Positions 4,867 through 28,568 of a stretch of DNA of 52,550 nt are shown here, in pieces. The notes under the pieces are model-generated. The model did not search any database, was not told where the DNA came from, and worked only from the letters and a program-made list of their open reading frames with translations. The stretch comes from Candidatus Zhuqueibacterota bacterium (GTDB lineage: Bacteria > Zhuqueibacterota > Zhuqueibacteria > Oceanimicrobiales > Oceanimicrobiaceae). The position numbers and the translations under genes are program-made. The stretch covers positions 1 to 52,550 of the forward strand of contig JAJDAD010000088.1 in assembly GCA_029262055.1 (NCBI GenBank), given 5' to 3'. Each line of letters opens with the position of its first letter. Within the stretch, counting starts at the first letter, position 1.

Positions 4867-6597
4867 TCAGCGGTTGCGCTGGTTGCGGAAGAAAGTTTCT
4901 ATTTCGGCCAGGGACAATGCGTTTAGGATATTCTCTCGCTGCAGCCAGCCTTTGCGCGCAATGCCGACGCCGTAGCGCATGTCGGACAATCCGTCGACGC
5001 TGTGCGAATCCGGGTTGATGCTGATGAGGACACCCTGGTCCCTGGCGTACTTGCAGTAGCGCCAGTCGATATCGAAGCGATAAGGGCTGGCATTTAGTTC
5101 AATGGACACGGAGTGCTCAGCGGCCGTATCGATTATCCGATGCATGTCGAGAGGCAGCCCCTCACGACCGAGAAGCAGCCTGCCGGTCGGATGTCCGAGA
5201 ATGCTGACATAGGGATTCTTAATGGCGCGCACGACTCGCGCGGTGGCGTCCTCCGCCGACATTCCCAAGTTGCTGTGCACGGACGCTACTACAAAATCAA
5301 AGGTGGCGAGCACCTCATCGGCATAATCGAGGGTACCGTCATTCATGATATCGCACTCAGTGCCCTTGAGAATCTTAAAGTCCGAGTACTGTTGATTCAG
5401 ATCGTCGATGAGCGCGTGTTGCTCCACGACGCGTTCCGGTTCCAGGCCGCGCGCATAAACGACCACCTGGCTGTGGTCGCAGATTCCGAAGTACTGGTGG
5501 TCCTTGGCGCGCACAGCATTGGCCATCTCCTCCAGCGTGTTGGCGCCATCACTAAAGGTTGAGTGGCAATGCAGTATGCCTTTGATGTCTTTCTCCGCGA
5601 CCAACTCCGGGAGCCCGTCGCCGGCAGCCGCCTCAAACTCGCCGTTATCCTCGCGCAGCTCGGGCGGGATGTAGGCCAGGCCCAGGGCCTCGAAAATGTC
5701 GGCTTCGGAGTCACACGGGATAAGCTCATCCTCATTTTTGAACAGGCCGTGCTCGCTCACTTTCATGTCCTTCTTTTTTGCCAGGCCGCGCATCGCCGTG
5801 TTGTGCTCTGCGGAGCCAGTCAGATGGTGCAGGATGTAGGGGAATTTTTCATCGGGCAGCACGCGCAGGTCAGCGCTGATGCCTTGCTGTAACACGACAG
5901 TCGACTTGGACTCTCCGCTGCCGACAACGTCCGCCACATCGGGTAGAGAAACAAAGAACTGCATGATTTCCCCGATGTCCTGCGGCTCAGCGCTTGCGAC
6001 GATGTCGACGTCTTTGATGGTCTCCTTCTTCCGGCGCAGGCTGCCGGTGAGTTCGGCGCGAATCACATTCGGATGACTTTGAATGGCCGCCAACAACGGC
6101 TGTGCTGCCGCCTCCGCCCGATGGAAGAGGTGCCTGCCGCTGTGCTGCTTCAGAAATGTGATGCCCTGCAGTATTTTCTCCTGCGTCTTCTTCCCGAATC
6201 CCTCCAGGTCCGAAAGGCGGTTCTCGCGGCAGGCATACTCAAGCTCTGCGACATTTTGAATGCCCAATGCGGTATAGACCTTGTTGACTTTCTTCGGGCC
6301 AAAACCGGGAATGCGTGTCATTTCGACCAGACCCGCCGGCACAGAGGCCTTGAGTTCGTCATAGTAGTCCAGCTTGCCGGTTGTCACCAGTTTGGTGATC
6401 TTGTCCTGCAACGCAGCGCCGATACCTTTGATGTTCTTGATCTCGCCCGATGCCACCAGTTCTTTCGGCTCCTTGCTCTGGGCCAGCATGGTACGGGCAC
6501 CCATCATATAAGCCCGGCTCTTGAACGGGTTTTCACCCTTGATCTCGAGCAGGGTACCGATTTCATCGAGAATCTTGCTGAGTTGTTTCTTTTCCAT
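4867..6597 (-). CDS. polX: DNA polymerase/3'-5' exonuclease PolX
   Basis: A family-X repair polymerase with a PHP nuclease domain, 576 residues (family about 570). The N-terminal HhH/8-kDa region (1-150) includes KGIGAALQDK and PGFGPKKV. The palm has GSLRR (185-189), the DVD metal ligands (D197, D199) and a third carboxylate in ADLRV (D243). The PHP domain (about 338-576) keeps HCH (343-345), DH (374-375), E414, H441, H469 and the closing NPDSH (528-532). All metal ligands appear intact, so both gap-filling and nuclease activities are expected. It is monocistronic between the exporter operon and a long intergenic region. Confidence 0.93.
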   Translation of the reverse strand: MEKKQLSKILDEIGTLLEIKGENPFKSRAYMMGARTMLAQSKEPKELVASGEIKNIKGIGAALQDKITKLVTTGKLDYYDELKASVPAGLVEMTRIPGFGPKKVNKVYTALGIQNVAELEYACRENRLSDLEGFGKKTQEKILQGITFLKQHSGRHLFHRAEAAAQPLLAAIQSHPNVIRAELTGSLRRKKETIKDVDIVASAEPQDIGEIMQFFVSLPDVADVVGSGESKSTVVLQQGISADLRVLPDEKFPYILHHLTGSAEHNTAMRGLAKKKDMKVSEHGLFKNEDELIPCDSEADIFEALGLAYIPPELREDNGEFEAAAGDGLPELVAEKDIKGILHCHSTFSDGANTLEEMANAVRAKDHQYFGICDHSQVVVYARGLEPERVVEQHALIDDLNQQYSDFKILKGTECDIMNDGTLDYADEVLATFDFVVASVHSNLGMSAEDATARVVRAIKNPYVSILGHPTGRLLLGREGLPLDMHRIIDTAAEHSVSIELNASPYRFDIDWRYCKYARDQGVLISINPDSHSVDGLSDMRYGVGIARKGWLQRENILNALSLAEIETFFRNQRNR

Positions 6598-24528: not shown

Positions 24529-27075
24529 TCAAGCAGAATTCCTGGCGGCGTTGATATTTCCATATAACGATCGTTTAACCATTTTATGGTAATTTTCGGT
24601 ATTGCCGGAATCATGTTCAATTTTTTGTAGAGCATATTGCTGGATAACCAGTAACGGTAAAACGATTCGCTCTCTAATCTCTATCGAATTTCTTGAAATA
24701 TGTTCTTCTTCCATGAGAGCGCTGTAATTTGAAATGAGCAGAACCATCTCTTTTGATAATTTATATTCTTCAAATAAGATGTTCCAAAAATCTTTGTATT
24801 CTTCATTTTTGGCAATGTAACTGGTCAATTCAAAATAGCACTTGGATAGTGACATCATGCTATTAAGTATGAGCGCCTTGAAAAATGGTATTTCCTCAAA
24901 TAACTCTACTAGTTCATCCTGCTTTCCATCTTTGATCAACGCCTGTATGGCCGTTCCGATACCGAAGTAGCCCGGAACATTCTGTCTTAATTGGCTCCAG
25001 GAACCCACAAACGGTATTGCCCGCAGATCTTTCAGTTCCAGTTTTTTCTTATTACCTCTTTTGCTAGGCCTGCTCCCAATGTTAGCCTTTCCATAATATT
25101 TGAGTGTACTCATGTTCTCCAGATACGGAACAAACATTGGATGATTTTTGAGGTCATTATATTTATAAAAACTGATTTGAGCTAAAGCATCAATGGTTTG
25201 TCTGGATTTCTCGGAAAGTGTGTTTTCTTTGTCAAACAGACTATTGGACAAACCGGCTGTGAGAAGTTGTTCGCAATTATGAATGAAGTGCGCTTTTGTT
25301 CCATATTTGCTGGTAATGGTCTGGCCCTGAATGGTTAACTGGATAGCGTGATTGGCAATCTTTTGACTTTGCGCTGCATAAAAACGGTGTGTCTTCCCTC
25401 CACCACGAGCAGGCGGTCCTCCACGGCCATCAAAAAATATGGCCTTGATACCATATTGCTCGCAAACAGCCGACAACTCCTCTTTCGTTGTGAAAATAGA
25501 CCAGTTTGCCTGCAGATACCCGCCGTCCTTCGTGCCATCGGAAAATCCTAACATTATGGTCTGTCTGTTTTTGCGTTGCGTTATGTGTGACCTATATTCC
25601 GGAATATCGAAGAGCTCTTGCATAAGCAATTTCGAGTTTTCCATGCCGTTCATTGATTCGAACAGAGGTATGATATCAAACGGTGTTTCCCGCTCATCCC
25701 AGCCACACCATCTGAAAAGTGCAAACACAAATAGGACCGAAAAGATATCCTCGGAATTACTGATAATATATCTGTTGCAGCCTTCTTCGCCATTTTTCAT
25801 CTGAATGGACTTGAGCTGCGTAATTGTTCGAATCGTATCTCTTAGGAGCTCATCTTCAAATTGTTCTGCATGTATGTCAATATCCTTGTGGATAAGAATC
25901 GAAATCAATTCATCTCTTGTCAATTCATCCAGGCTTTGTGAAATTAACCCTTCAGTCTTGAGTACTTCCTCTACGGTTTGTTGATGAACAGCATGGTTCT
26001 GTCGAATGTCCAAAGAGGCAAAGTGGGTCTTGAATATTTTGACTTTGTCAATGAGATTATCCAGTTCTTCGAGGTATAATCTGTTGTATTTACTTACCAG
26101 CGACTTTCTCACAGCATAAAGCGGCTCTAGTATCTGTTCAACTTTTATCAGTTTTTCCGGATCGAACATGGTTACGTAAAGCTGGTTTCTCAGGTCCGTA
26201 ATGATGTCTTCAACTTCCCTGAAAGTGAGTTTTTGCTGCAGATCTTTAATCTCATTATAATAACACTTCATTAAGGACATGCGCAGCTCATCGGCAACAG
26301 CCATTGTTGTGTCCGAAGTAACAAAAGGATTGCCATCCCGGTCCCCACCTGGCCAGAATCCAAGCTGAATAATATCCGGATTGTTGAAATTGCGACTAGG
26401 GATATTCTTTTTTATGTAGGAATAGAGTTCACCCACGGCATCATAATAGACGTTTCTCAGGAAGTAGATGATATTTTTGGCTTCATCGAGCGGCGTAGGT
26501 TTTTTGGAGTTTATTAAGGATGTCAATCCCAATTGCTGCAACGTCAGATCTATTTCATTGATATTGTTTTCAGTAATAAGTGTTCGCAATTTACCAATGA
26601 TATCCAGAACAGACGGAGGATAAAATTGTGTCGGGTGCGCTGTAAATACAATCCGCGTACTGAACGTTGCCAGCTTTTCTGCAATCCCGGCCCTGCCCTT
26701 TTTGTTCTCCGCAAAATGGATGAAATCTTTCAGGGATAAATGATCATCAAAGTTCAGAAGGTGTTTAAATGCGGCATCTTCAGCGCTGTCATAAAGTACA
26801 ATTTGCCGTTCAATATACTGTATCACTCTGAAGATAAAATCTATTCTATCTTGCTCCGATGTTATCTTCGCCTGTTCATCAAAAAATGATTCGAGAATAT
26901 CCAAAGGCTCGCTTCCGGATTCAAGCCCTTCTTTGCAAACATGGTGCAGCAAAGGGATAAACATTCCAGTGTTACTGATATTTTGAAAGGGTAGGTTCAA
27001 AAACAAGCTGTTATATACATTAAACTTGTTCTTTACCAGCTTTTCAAATTCTTTTTCGAGTACCGGTTTATTCAT
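24529..27075 (-). CDS. ppc: Phosphoenolpyruvate carboxylase
   Basis: An anaplerotic enzyme fixing bicarbonate to PEP to give oxaloacetate, 848 residues (bacterial forms about 850-930). Catalytic signatures are present in order: FTAHPTQ (catalytic His), FWPGGDRDGNPFVT, LGFSDGTKDGGY and FFDGRGGPPARGGG. FVGSWSQLRQNVPGYFG follows, and the conserved C-terminal end is NINAARNSA. The coding sequence is clearly AT-richer than the flanking genes, with many TTT/ATA/AAA codons, and looks Bacteroidetes-like, so acquisition by transfer is likely. It is monocistronic. A weak hairpin (AACCTT/AAGGTT, 24514-24529) overlaps its stop. Confidence 0.95.
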   Translation of the reverse strand: MNKPVLEKEFEKLVKNKFNVYNSLFLNLPFQNISNTGMFIPLLHHVCKEGLESGSEPLDILESFFDEQAKITSEQDRIDFIFRVIQYIERQIVLYDSAEDAAFKHLLNFDDHLSLKDFIHFAENKKGRAGIAEKLATFSTRIVFTAHPTQFYPPSVLDIIGKLRTLITENNINEIDLTLQQLGLTSLINSKKPTPLDEAKNIIYFLRNVYYDAVGELYSYIKKNIPSRNFNNPDIIQLGFWPGGDRDGNPFVTSDTTMAVADELRMSLMKCYYNEIKDLQQKLTFREVEDIITDLRNQLYVTMFDPEKLIKVEQILEPLYAVRKSLVSKYNRLYLEELDNLIDKVKIFKTHFASLDIRQNHAVHQQTVEEVLKTEGLISQSLDELTRDELISILIHKDIDIHAEQFEDELLRDTIRTITQLKSIQMKNGEEGCNRYIISNSEDIFSVLFVFALFRWCGWDERETPFDIIPLFESMNGMENSKLLMQELFDIPEYRSHITQRKNRQTIMLGFSDGTKDGGYLQANWSIFTTKEELSAVCEQYGIKAIFFDGRGGPPARGGGKTHRFYAAQSQKIANHAIQLTIQGQTITSKYGTKAHFIHNCEQLLTAGLSNSLFDKENTLSEKSRQTIDALAQISFYKYNDLKNHPMFVPYLENMSTLKYYGKANIGSRPSKRGNKKKLELKDLRAIPFVGSWSQLRQNVPGYFGIGTAIQALIKDGKQDELVELFEEIPFFKALILNSMMSLSKCYFELTSYIAKNEEYKDFWNILFEEYKLSKEMVLLISNYSALMEEEHISRNSIEIRERIVLPLLVIQQYALQKIEHDSGNTENYHKMVKRSLYGNINAARNSA

Positions 27076-27212: not shown

Positions 27213-27340
27213 CTCTAACAAAATGCTCAGTGCGCCAAGGGTTTCAATTCACCTTAGCTTTGCTCAAACTGATGTTGGCAGTAAACTGACACTCAGAAAA
27301 TTCGCTACAGCCCTTGGCTCCACTGAAGCAAAAGTTAGAC
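27213..27340 (-). repeat. attC-like integron recombination site (128-bp imperfect palindrome)
   Basis: Read on the minus strand it opens with GTCTAAC (27340-27334, the R'' form RYYYAAC). TTTT and GCTTCAGTG (27329-27321) follow, then CCAAGGG (27317-27311). The mirror arms are CCCTTGG (27241-27235), CACTGAGC (27232-27225), ATTTT and GTTAGAG (27219-27213, R' form GTTRRRY except the last base). The one unpaired T in the first L arm is the kind of extrahelical base that orients attC sites, and its orientation fits the minus-strand gene just upstream. Length matches the long VCR class. The central 69 bases show no further strong pairing. Confidence 0.7.
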
Positions 27341-28066
27341 ATATGCCGTGCTAAACAGACTGCTACTGAAAACCCCACTTCAGCCAGGCAATGTAGTCAT
27401 CGATTAGAATCTGTCCTAGGTCTATAATTTCATTTGCCTGATTTTTGCTGACATCTATTCCATGAATTGCTGAATTAGATAAATTCAATATAGTCTGCAT
27501 GAAGTCGAACTGACGCTGATCTATCGCATCGGCTTGAAGCAGCTTCATCGTTTTGGCTCTAATAGACTCCTTCTCGCCAATATCAATAGCAAAACCTTTG
27601 GCCAAATTATTTAGCATCAACTCTAAATCAAGACGCAAACCAGCGAGCGCCAACCTTGGATCCTTTTCAGCTAGGTCCTTATAAAAATCAATTTCCAGTC
27701 CACTTGGAGAAGGTGATAATCCAAGCTCAAGCATTCTTTTATTGGCAGCTGAGTACTTTGGCTCTGCGCTAGGCCGTTTGAGCTTCTTTTCGTGATCGTC
27801 CCTTTTCTGACGGTGCACACTATCTTTTTTTACCTGTTGCCCTAACTCCTTCGCCCTTTCAAGTTGCTCATCAAACGTCTCAACGCTAATACCACCAGGA
27901 AGATTTATTCTCCTTGTTCGAGCCAGTAGAGCAAATAACTCGTTCCTGTAAACTAGCAGGATTGTGATCACGCTCGCAGGCCAAATGGTAGCTTTGATAT
28001 ACTCTAAAACAATTTTGGCGATTTCCATATCAGTTTGTTTCTCGCAATTTCATCCGTTCGTCTAAC
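27219..28066 (-). mobile_element. Single integron-type gene cassette
   Basis: The segment between a core GTTAGAC (28066-28060) upstream of the gene and the core GTTAGAG of the attC-like site downstream has cassette anatomy: one ORF close to the 5' core, no room for a promoter, and attC right after the stop. No integrase gene lies in the window, so it would be a solitary or CALIN-type cassette. The sequence is AT-richer than the core genome. Confidence 0.6.
27363..28028 (-). CDS. Cassette-borne membrane-anchored protein with DUF4145/HEPN-like C-terminus
   Basis: The protein has 221 residues. One transmembrane helix near the N-terminus (about 13-28, TIWPASVITILLVY) is followed by a basic, charged coiled segment (50-95) and a helical C-terminal domain (115-221). 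That domain runs LALAGLRLDLELMLNNLAKGF, then IRAKTMKLL, then ILNLSNSAIHG with a conserved-looking H189. This pattern recalls DUF4145/HEPN-type domains, which occur in defence and RNA-cleaving proteins, but the HEPN Rx4-6H is not exact. The ATG lies 32 bases from the cassette core, and the stop 23 bases before the attC-like site. Function is unknown; a stress or defence role is a guess. Confidence 0.65.
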   Translation of the reverse strand: MEIAKIVLEYIKATIWPASVITILLVYRNELFALLARTRRINLPGGISVETFDEQLERAKELGQQVKKDSVHRQKRDDHEKKLKRPSAEPKYSAANKRMLELGLSPSPSGLEIDFYKDLAEKDPRLALAGLRLDLELMLNNLAKGFAIDIGEKESIRAKTMKLLQADAIDQRQFDFMQTILNLSNSAIHGIDVSKNQANEIIDLGQILIDDYIAWLKWGFQ

Positions 28067-28114: not shown

Positions 28115-28493
28115 TCATAAACCCAAAGTCCAGCCACGAAATAAGGATGAAATGCCGCCAGAATGGCGGTGTAAGACATTGCGGCCCGAGTTTATTCCGC
28201 CAGAATACAAACCATGGATGGATTTCTGCATGGCAGCTCCGCAATTGCGATTCCTCTGGCGCTTTGACTTTCCGTGTACAGGAGCTTCGACTGGGAGGTA
28301 CCCGGAACTTCCGGAAGATAACCTTGCTTTGCGCAACAAGGTAAACGTGAGAGGCCACCGCACACACAATCAATAAAGGAATTCTCAGGGCCAGAAACAA
28401 GAAAAAGGTACAGCGGGTCTTCGAGGGGGAGCTGGAGGCAATCCGGACGAATTGGCGGAGCCGTCGCGAGCGCGACAAATCGTAATAAAAGAG
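28115..28493. other. Gene-free stretch beside the tRNA
   Basis: I see no credible gene. Open frames exist on both strands but none has a ribosome site or a family pattern. Small hairpins are present: CCGCCA-GAA-TGGCGG (28154-28168) and GTCGC-GAGC-GCGAC (28463-28476). No copy of the tRNA 3' end was seen, so there is no sign of a tRNA attachment site. Confidence 0.4.
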
Positions 28494-28568
28494 TGGGCGA
28501 TACTGGACTCGAACCAGTGACCCCCTGCTTGTAAGGCAGGTGCTCTAAACCAACTGAGCTAATCGCCC
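28494..28568 (-). tRNA. tRNA-Val (anticodon TAC)
   Basis: A 75-nt cloverleaf on the minus strand: acceptor GGGCGAT/ATCGCCC with discriminator A. The D-arm is GCTC/GAGC, the anticodon arm CCTGC-CTTACAA-GCAGG with anticodon TAC (28533-28531), and the T-arm ACTGG-TTCGAGT-CCAGT. CCA is not encoded. Confidence 0.95.

Follow-up and report, generated by a model that had tools for sequence, protein, structure and literature searches.

A probable lone integron gene cassette with a predicted membrane HEPN gene in a Zhuqueibacterota draft genome

An imperfect palindrome lies beside a single minus-strand gene in the window, a stretch of 52,550 bases that constitutes the entire contig C101, one of 114 in a draft genome of 5.7 Mb, and the question is whether the two together make up an integron gene cassette that stands outside any integron. 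The sequence-only reading of this DNA described a palindrome at 27213–27340 with the order R''/L''/L'/R', ends of GTCTAAC and GTTAGAG, and matching arms with one extrahelical T, and all of these elements are present in the sequence at these positions. Read on the minus strand, the site is 128 nt long including R'. The R'' box GTCTAAC (27334–27340) is followed by the spacer TTTT, the L'' box GCTTCAGTG (27321–27329) and the dinucleotide GA. An 8-bp inner stem is formed by the arms GCCAAGGG (27318–27311) and CCCTTGGC (27241–27234), which enclose a loop of 69 nt. After a single G come the L' box CACTGAGC (27225–27232), the spacer ATTTT and the R' box GTTAGAG (27213–27219), with the putative crossover after the G at 27219. 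When one T is deleted from L'', the remainder, read directly, is the exact complement of L'; this base is also unpaired in the fold and sits at the place in L'' that is usual for attC sites. Folding of the minus-strand DNA yields the attC stem (z = −2.0). The order of the boxes and the unpaired L'' base are thus those of an attC site. The site is atypical in having short, AT-rich spacers and an R' box that ends in G rather than Y.

The relation of this site to the DNA at the other end of the gene is of particular importance. A second core, GTTAGAC, is located at 28060–28066 on the minus strand, and the R'' box is its exact complement (7/7), whereas R' of the same site matches at 6/7 positions and differs at the last base. 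Integron crossover takes place between the G and TT of the core. A match of R'' to the upstream core, and not fully to its own R', is expected from insertion of a circular cassette through such a crossover, and nothing would make a hairpin formed by chance obey this rule. In an array from Gemmatirosa used as a control, all the R'' boxes examined are perfectly complementary to the core before them, which forms the 5' terminus of their own cassette. A short array on contig C22 of the same genome follows the rule with different letters, pairing an R'' of ATCTAAC with an upstream core of GTTAGAT. The cassette as integrated, from the T of the upstream core to the G of R', spans 27219–28065 on the minus strand (847 bp). 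Its only gene (27363–28028, minus strand, 221 aa) has the orientation of the attC site and fills the space between the cores, as had been proposed, with the stop codon 22 bases before R''. The GTTAGAC core was also correctly placed in the sequence-only reading, but the gap between it and the ATG at 28028 is 31 bases and not 32. A seven-codon frame, MKLRETN (28030–28053, minus strand), begins just inside the cassette; a single base separates its stop from the ATG of the cassette gene, and the two could be coupled in translation.

A different explanation is that the palindrome is a transcription terminator or a chance hairpin and that the cores are coincidental, so that no cassette exists. This was weighed with an architecture scan that requires pairing of R'' with R' and of L'' with L' (one bulge, in L'') and lengths as in known sites. 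The scan recovers known arrays (11 sites in one Gemmatirosa array, for example) and gives one match in the window, at 27213–27340. In simulated sequence with the same dinucleotide make-up, matches with 6/6 paired bases in R and 8/8 in L with one bulge occur about 5 times in every 30 Mb (0.01 expected in a stretch the length of the window), and adding the inner stem (7/7) leaves no match in 120 Mb. At full stringency, the only other match in the 1.66 Mb of the genome that was scanned is an evident attC site, C22:369–494. The palindrome also lacks a terminator-like pattern, and the upstream core is exact. The presence of only a single site and the modest covariance scores described below fit a hairpin better, but taken together we consider a terminator or chance hairpin very unlikely.

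Three attC covariance models (R1, R2, and R3) were trained on sites outside the window, with a 60-base neutral loop in R2 and R3 and a short loop in R1. In unfiltered searches of the window, both R2 (11.6 bits, E 0.19) and R3 (15.6 bits, E 0.067) rank 27213–27340 on the minus strand first, with exact coordinates. The plus strand of the same region scores −0.1 with R2, so the orientation of the site agrees with that of the minus-strand gene, as had been claimed from the extrahelical T. Most control attC sites score 20–63 bits, far above the window site. With default filters the model runs over the window did not recover the attC site at 27213–27340, and the site is absent from the list that R2 gave for the whole genome with fast filters, which are insensitive to long sites. 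Model R1 cannot reach sites longer than about 100 nt and misses even its own training sites of 130 and 134 nt, so its silence on the window is uninformative. The sequence-only reading had named the lack of any attC model match as grounds for rejecting the site; a match is present, the best in the window, at a moderate score. Its architecture and the core rule carry the case for the attC site; the models play a supporting role. On this combined evidence, which bears out the proposed integron-type cassette, 27219–28065 on the minus strand is very probably one integron gene cassette, in which the 128-nt attC site comes after a gene for a WP-type transmembrane HEPN/DUF4145 protein.

The mechanism suggested by this arrangement is that the circular cassette was recombined with a target, through the folded bottom strand of its attC site, by an integron integrase of either this cell or a donor. 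After a crossover between G and TT, the 5' junction would read GTTAGAC, and the integrated site would carry the R' box GTTAGAG, with its last six bases contributed by target DNA. The cassette would now reside, with neither attI nor array, next to a phosphoenolpyruvate carboxylase (PEPC)-like gene and a tRNA-Val gene, in a tract rich in AT. With no integron promoter near, expression of the cassette gene would need a local promoter.

The cassette does not belong to a complete integron with adjacent intI and attI, as an integrase-family search gives no match on the contig. The earlier statement that no integrase is present therefore holds for the contig but not for the genome, in which a search for integron integrases and further attC sites, as had been recommended, revealed an intact integrase gene, a truncated one and the C22 array. 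The intact gene (C60:280–1623, 447 aa) scores 364 bits against a cut-off of 265, has the catalytic motifs GLR, HTFRH, GH, and IYTH, and carries an N-terminal extension of roughly 100 residues. Among 316 candidate relatives of this long type in public genomes, members adjoin attC sites in at least three genomes (L050, L059, and L089), and the C60 type is for this reason probably a working integron integrase. Its cassette side runs off the contig end. The second gene (C46:5743–6174 in the integrase search, within a locus at 5713–6183) encodes the C-terminal part of a canonical integron integrase without the first ~170–180 residues, and it ends near a gene for a REP-associated transposase. The C60 integrase likewise has such a transposase gene, a partial one, at its side, but such neighbors as a general trait of integron integrases were rejected, being found at 1 of 100 other integrase loci. 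The C22 array occupies 138–1910 at the contig start, with no integrase seen nearby, and comprises three minus-strand attC sites (1619–1498, 1238–1116, and 494–369) and two minus-strand genes (1093–515 and 344–138). Model R2, whose training set left them out, gives these sites 28.9, 19.9, and 19.5 bits; the first two lie within near-identical repeats (92%). Given the C60 and C46 integrases and the C22 array in one genome, integron machinery belongs to the organism's own equipment, or did so until recently. Of the 63 genomes of the class, 27 have a canonical or long integrase above the cut-off. Further cassettes may lie elsewhere in the genome, since the architecture scan covered about 1.66 of its 5.7 Mb and the filtered whole-genome model search is insensitive to long sites.

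The surroundings of the cassette bear on how it came to its present position. On one side is the PEPC-like gene (24529–27075, 848 aa) and on the other the tRNA-Val gene (28493–28568). The region had been described as AT-richer than its neighbors, which is correct relative to the wider flanks (42.5% GC in the cassette compared with about 53%) but not relative to the PEPC-like gene (40.0%); as this neighbor is equally AT-rich, the low GC content is not specific to the cassette. The PEPC-like gene is missing from genomes of the same family, and its nearest relative, 71% identical, is found in another family (G050). No attC site follows it, and it was rejected as a second cassette. The genes for a low-molecular-weight (LMW) phosphatase and LepA are unlinked in relatives. 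In one genome of the same family (G007) the tRNA-Val and LepA genes are adjacent, with a phage-type integrase fragment (L172, G007:C208, 640–1143) beside the tRNA, and tRNA-Val looks like an integration hotspot in the family. Considering this fragment and the absence of the PEPC-like gene from same-family genomes, the tract at 24.5–28.1 kb is a variable, AT-rich segment beside the tRNA.

Two routes to the present position, both raised in the sequence-only reading, were compared within the cassette reading. In the first, to which we give an even chance, an integron integrase inserted the cassette directly at a non-integron, attG-like site beside tRNA-Val. The contig contains neither a second attC site in the scan nor an integrase in the family search, and insertion at attG sites is an already described process (PMC12901181). 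When the flanks are joined, TAATCTT-ATGTTAGAGGAC-AAGATTA forms a 7-bp inverted repeat around GTT; with a chance probability of ~0.02 and having been noticed post hoc, this repeat is a slight hint in favor of direct insertion. No convincing open reading frame interrupted by the cassette was identified, the longest frame that spans the junction of the two flanks (160 aa) reaching back into the region of the tRNA gene. Against direct insertion, the empty site, CTTATG joined to TTAGAGGAC (CTTATG/TTAGAGG), was not found, no relative carrying the flanks, and the tract has been rearranged anyway, as the missing PEPC-like gene and the unlinked phosphatase and LepA genes indicate. In the second route, a real possibility that nevertheless falls short of an even chance, the cassette is the last survivor of a decayed array, perhaps brought by an island at tRNA-Val. 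The AT-richness of the whole tract, the phage-type integrase fragment beside the same tRNA in G007, and the survival of another short array at C22 are consistent with such a history, but no attC remnant is present after the PEPC-like gene or upstream of the cassette.

Of the 81 other phylum genomes, 80 lack the cassette gene, and this near-absence was counted as a sign of foreignness. Phylum-wide conserved synteny of gene and palindrome, the other ground on which the cassette was to be rejected, is thereby excluded. The sole homologue in the class (G052, 40% identity) lies at a contig end, and no attC site was found beside it. DUF4145 relatives of the cassette gene were also sought in plasmids, phages, viral contigs, and genome contigs, and none were found. 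DNA matches to the attC site in G033 and G048 were rejected, the likeness being 34 bp long, probably due to chance and situated where a coding region with a Tat-like signal begins.

The 221-residue protein consists of an N-terminal transmembrane helix that carries WP (TIWPASVITILLVY) and a DUF4145 (HEPN) domain. It matches PF13643 (DUF4145) in Pfam with 28.2 bits over a cut-off of 23.1 (E 2e-6), and the best structural matches of its predicted fold (mean pLDDT 73.6) are HEPN proteins, with Z scores that reach at most 10.1, for 2hsb (2.7 Å over 117 residues). The Pfam match and the helical HEPN fold place it in the HEPN superfamily. Its expected location is the inner membrane, with the HEPN domain facing the cytoplasm. 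In the Rx4-6H motif of catalytic HEPN RNases the usual arginine is replaced by Asn-182, with His-189 kept, and judged from these residues RNase activity is doubtful and catalysis uncertain. PADLOC gives only a weak match, to a candidate defense protein. Since integron cassettes have been reported to be rich in anti-phage genes (PMC12409362), a defense role may be guessed by association, and a membrane HEPN cargo fits those reports.

The cassette is a clear case of one that is not part of an array, found in a phylum that has been sparsely sampled and in which many members have integron integrases, and standard single-attC filters would discard it. It is an ordinary, if isolated, integron cassette, covered by two categories already described, single attC sites without an integrase and attG insertions. 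That the lineage with the N-terminally extended C60 integrase scatters single cassettes through the genome, producing lone chromosomal genes instead of arrays, seems to us unlikely. The encoded protein shares its single N-terminal transmembrane helix with WP and its DUF4145 domain with the WP-TM DUF4145 group of the HEPN superfamily, in which the WP is conserved and for which membrane stimulus sensing and action on RNA were proposed (PMC3710099), but differs from that group in having Asn-182 in place of the Rx4-6H arginine, whereas the G052 homologue retains Rx6H. With the single attC and CALIN elements of IntegronFinder (PMC9024848), the cassette shares an attC site and a cassette gene without a neighboring integron integrase. 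It differs in having one attC site in the window, under the default CALIN threshold of two close together, although a single attC can still be a true positive according to the same work. The cassettes at attG sites (Loot et al. 2024, as cited in PMC12901181) differ from the window cassette, for which no empty site was found, and resemble it in being lone cassettes in an ordinary chromosome with GTT at the crossover.
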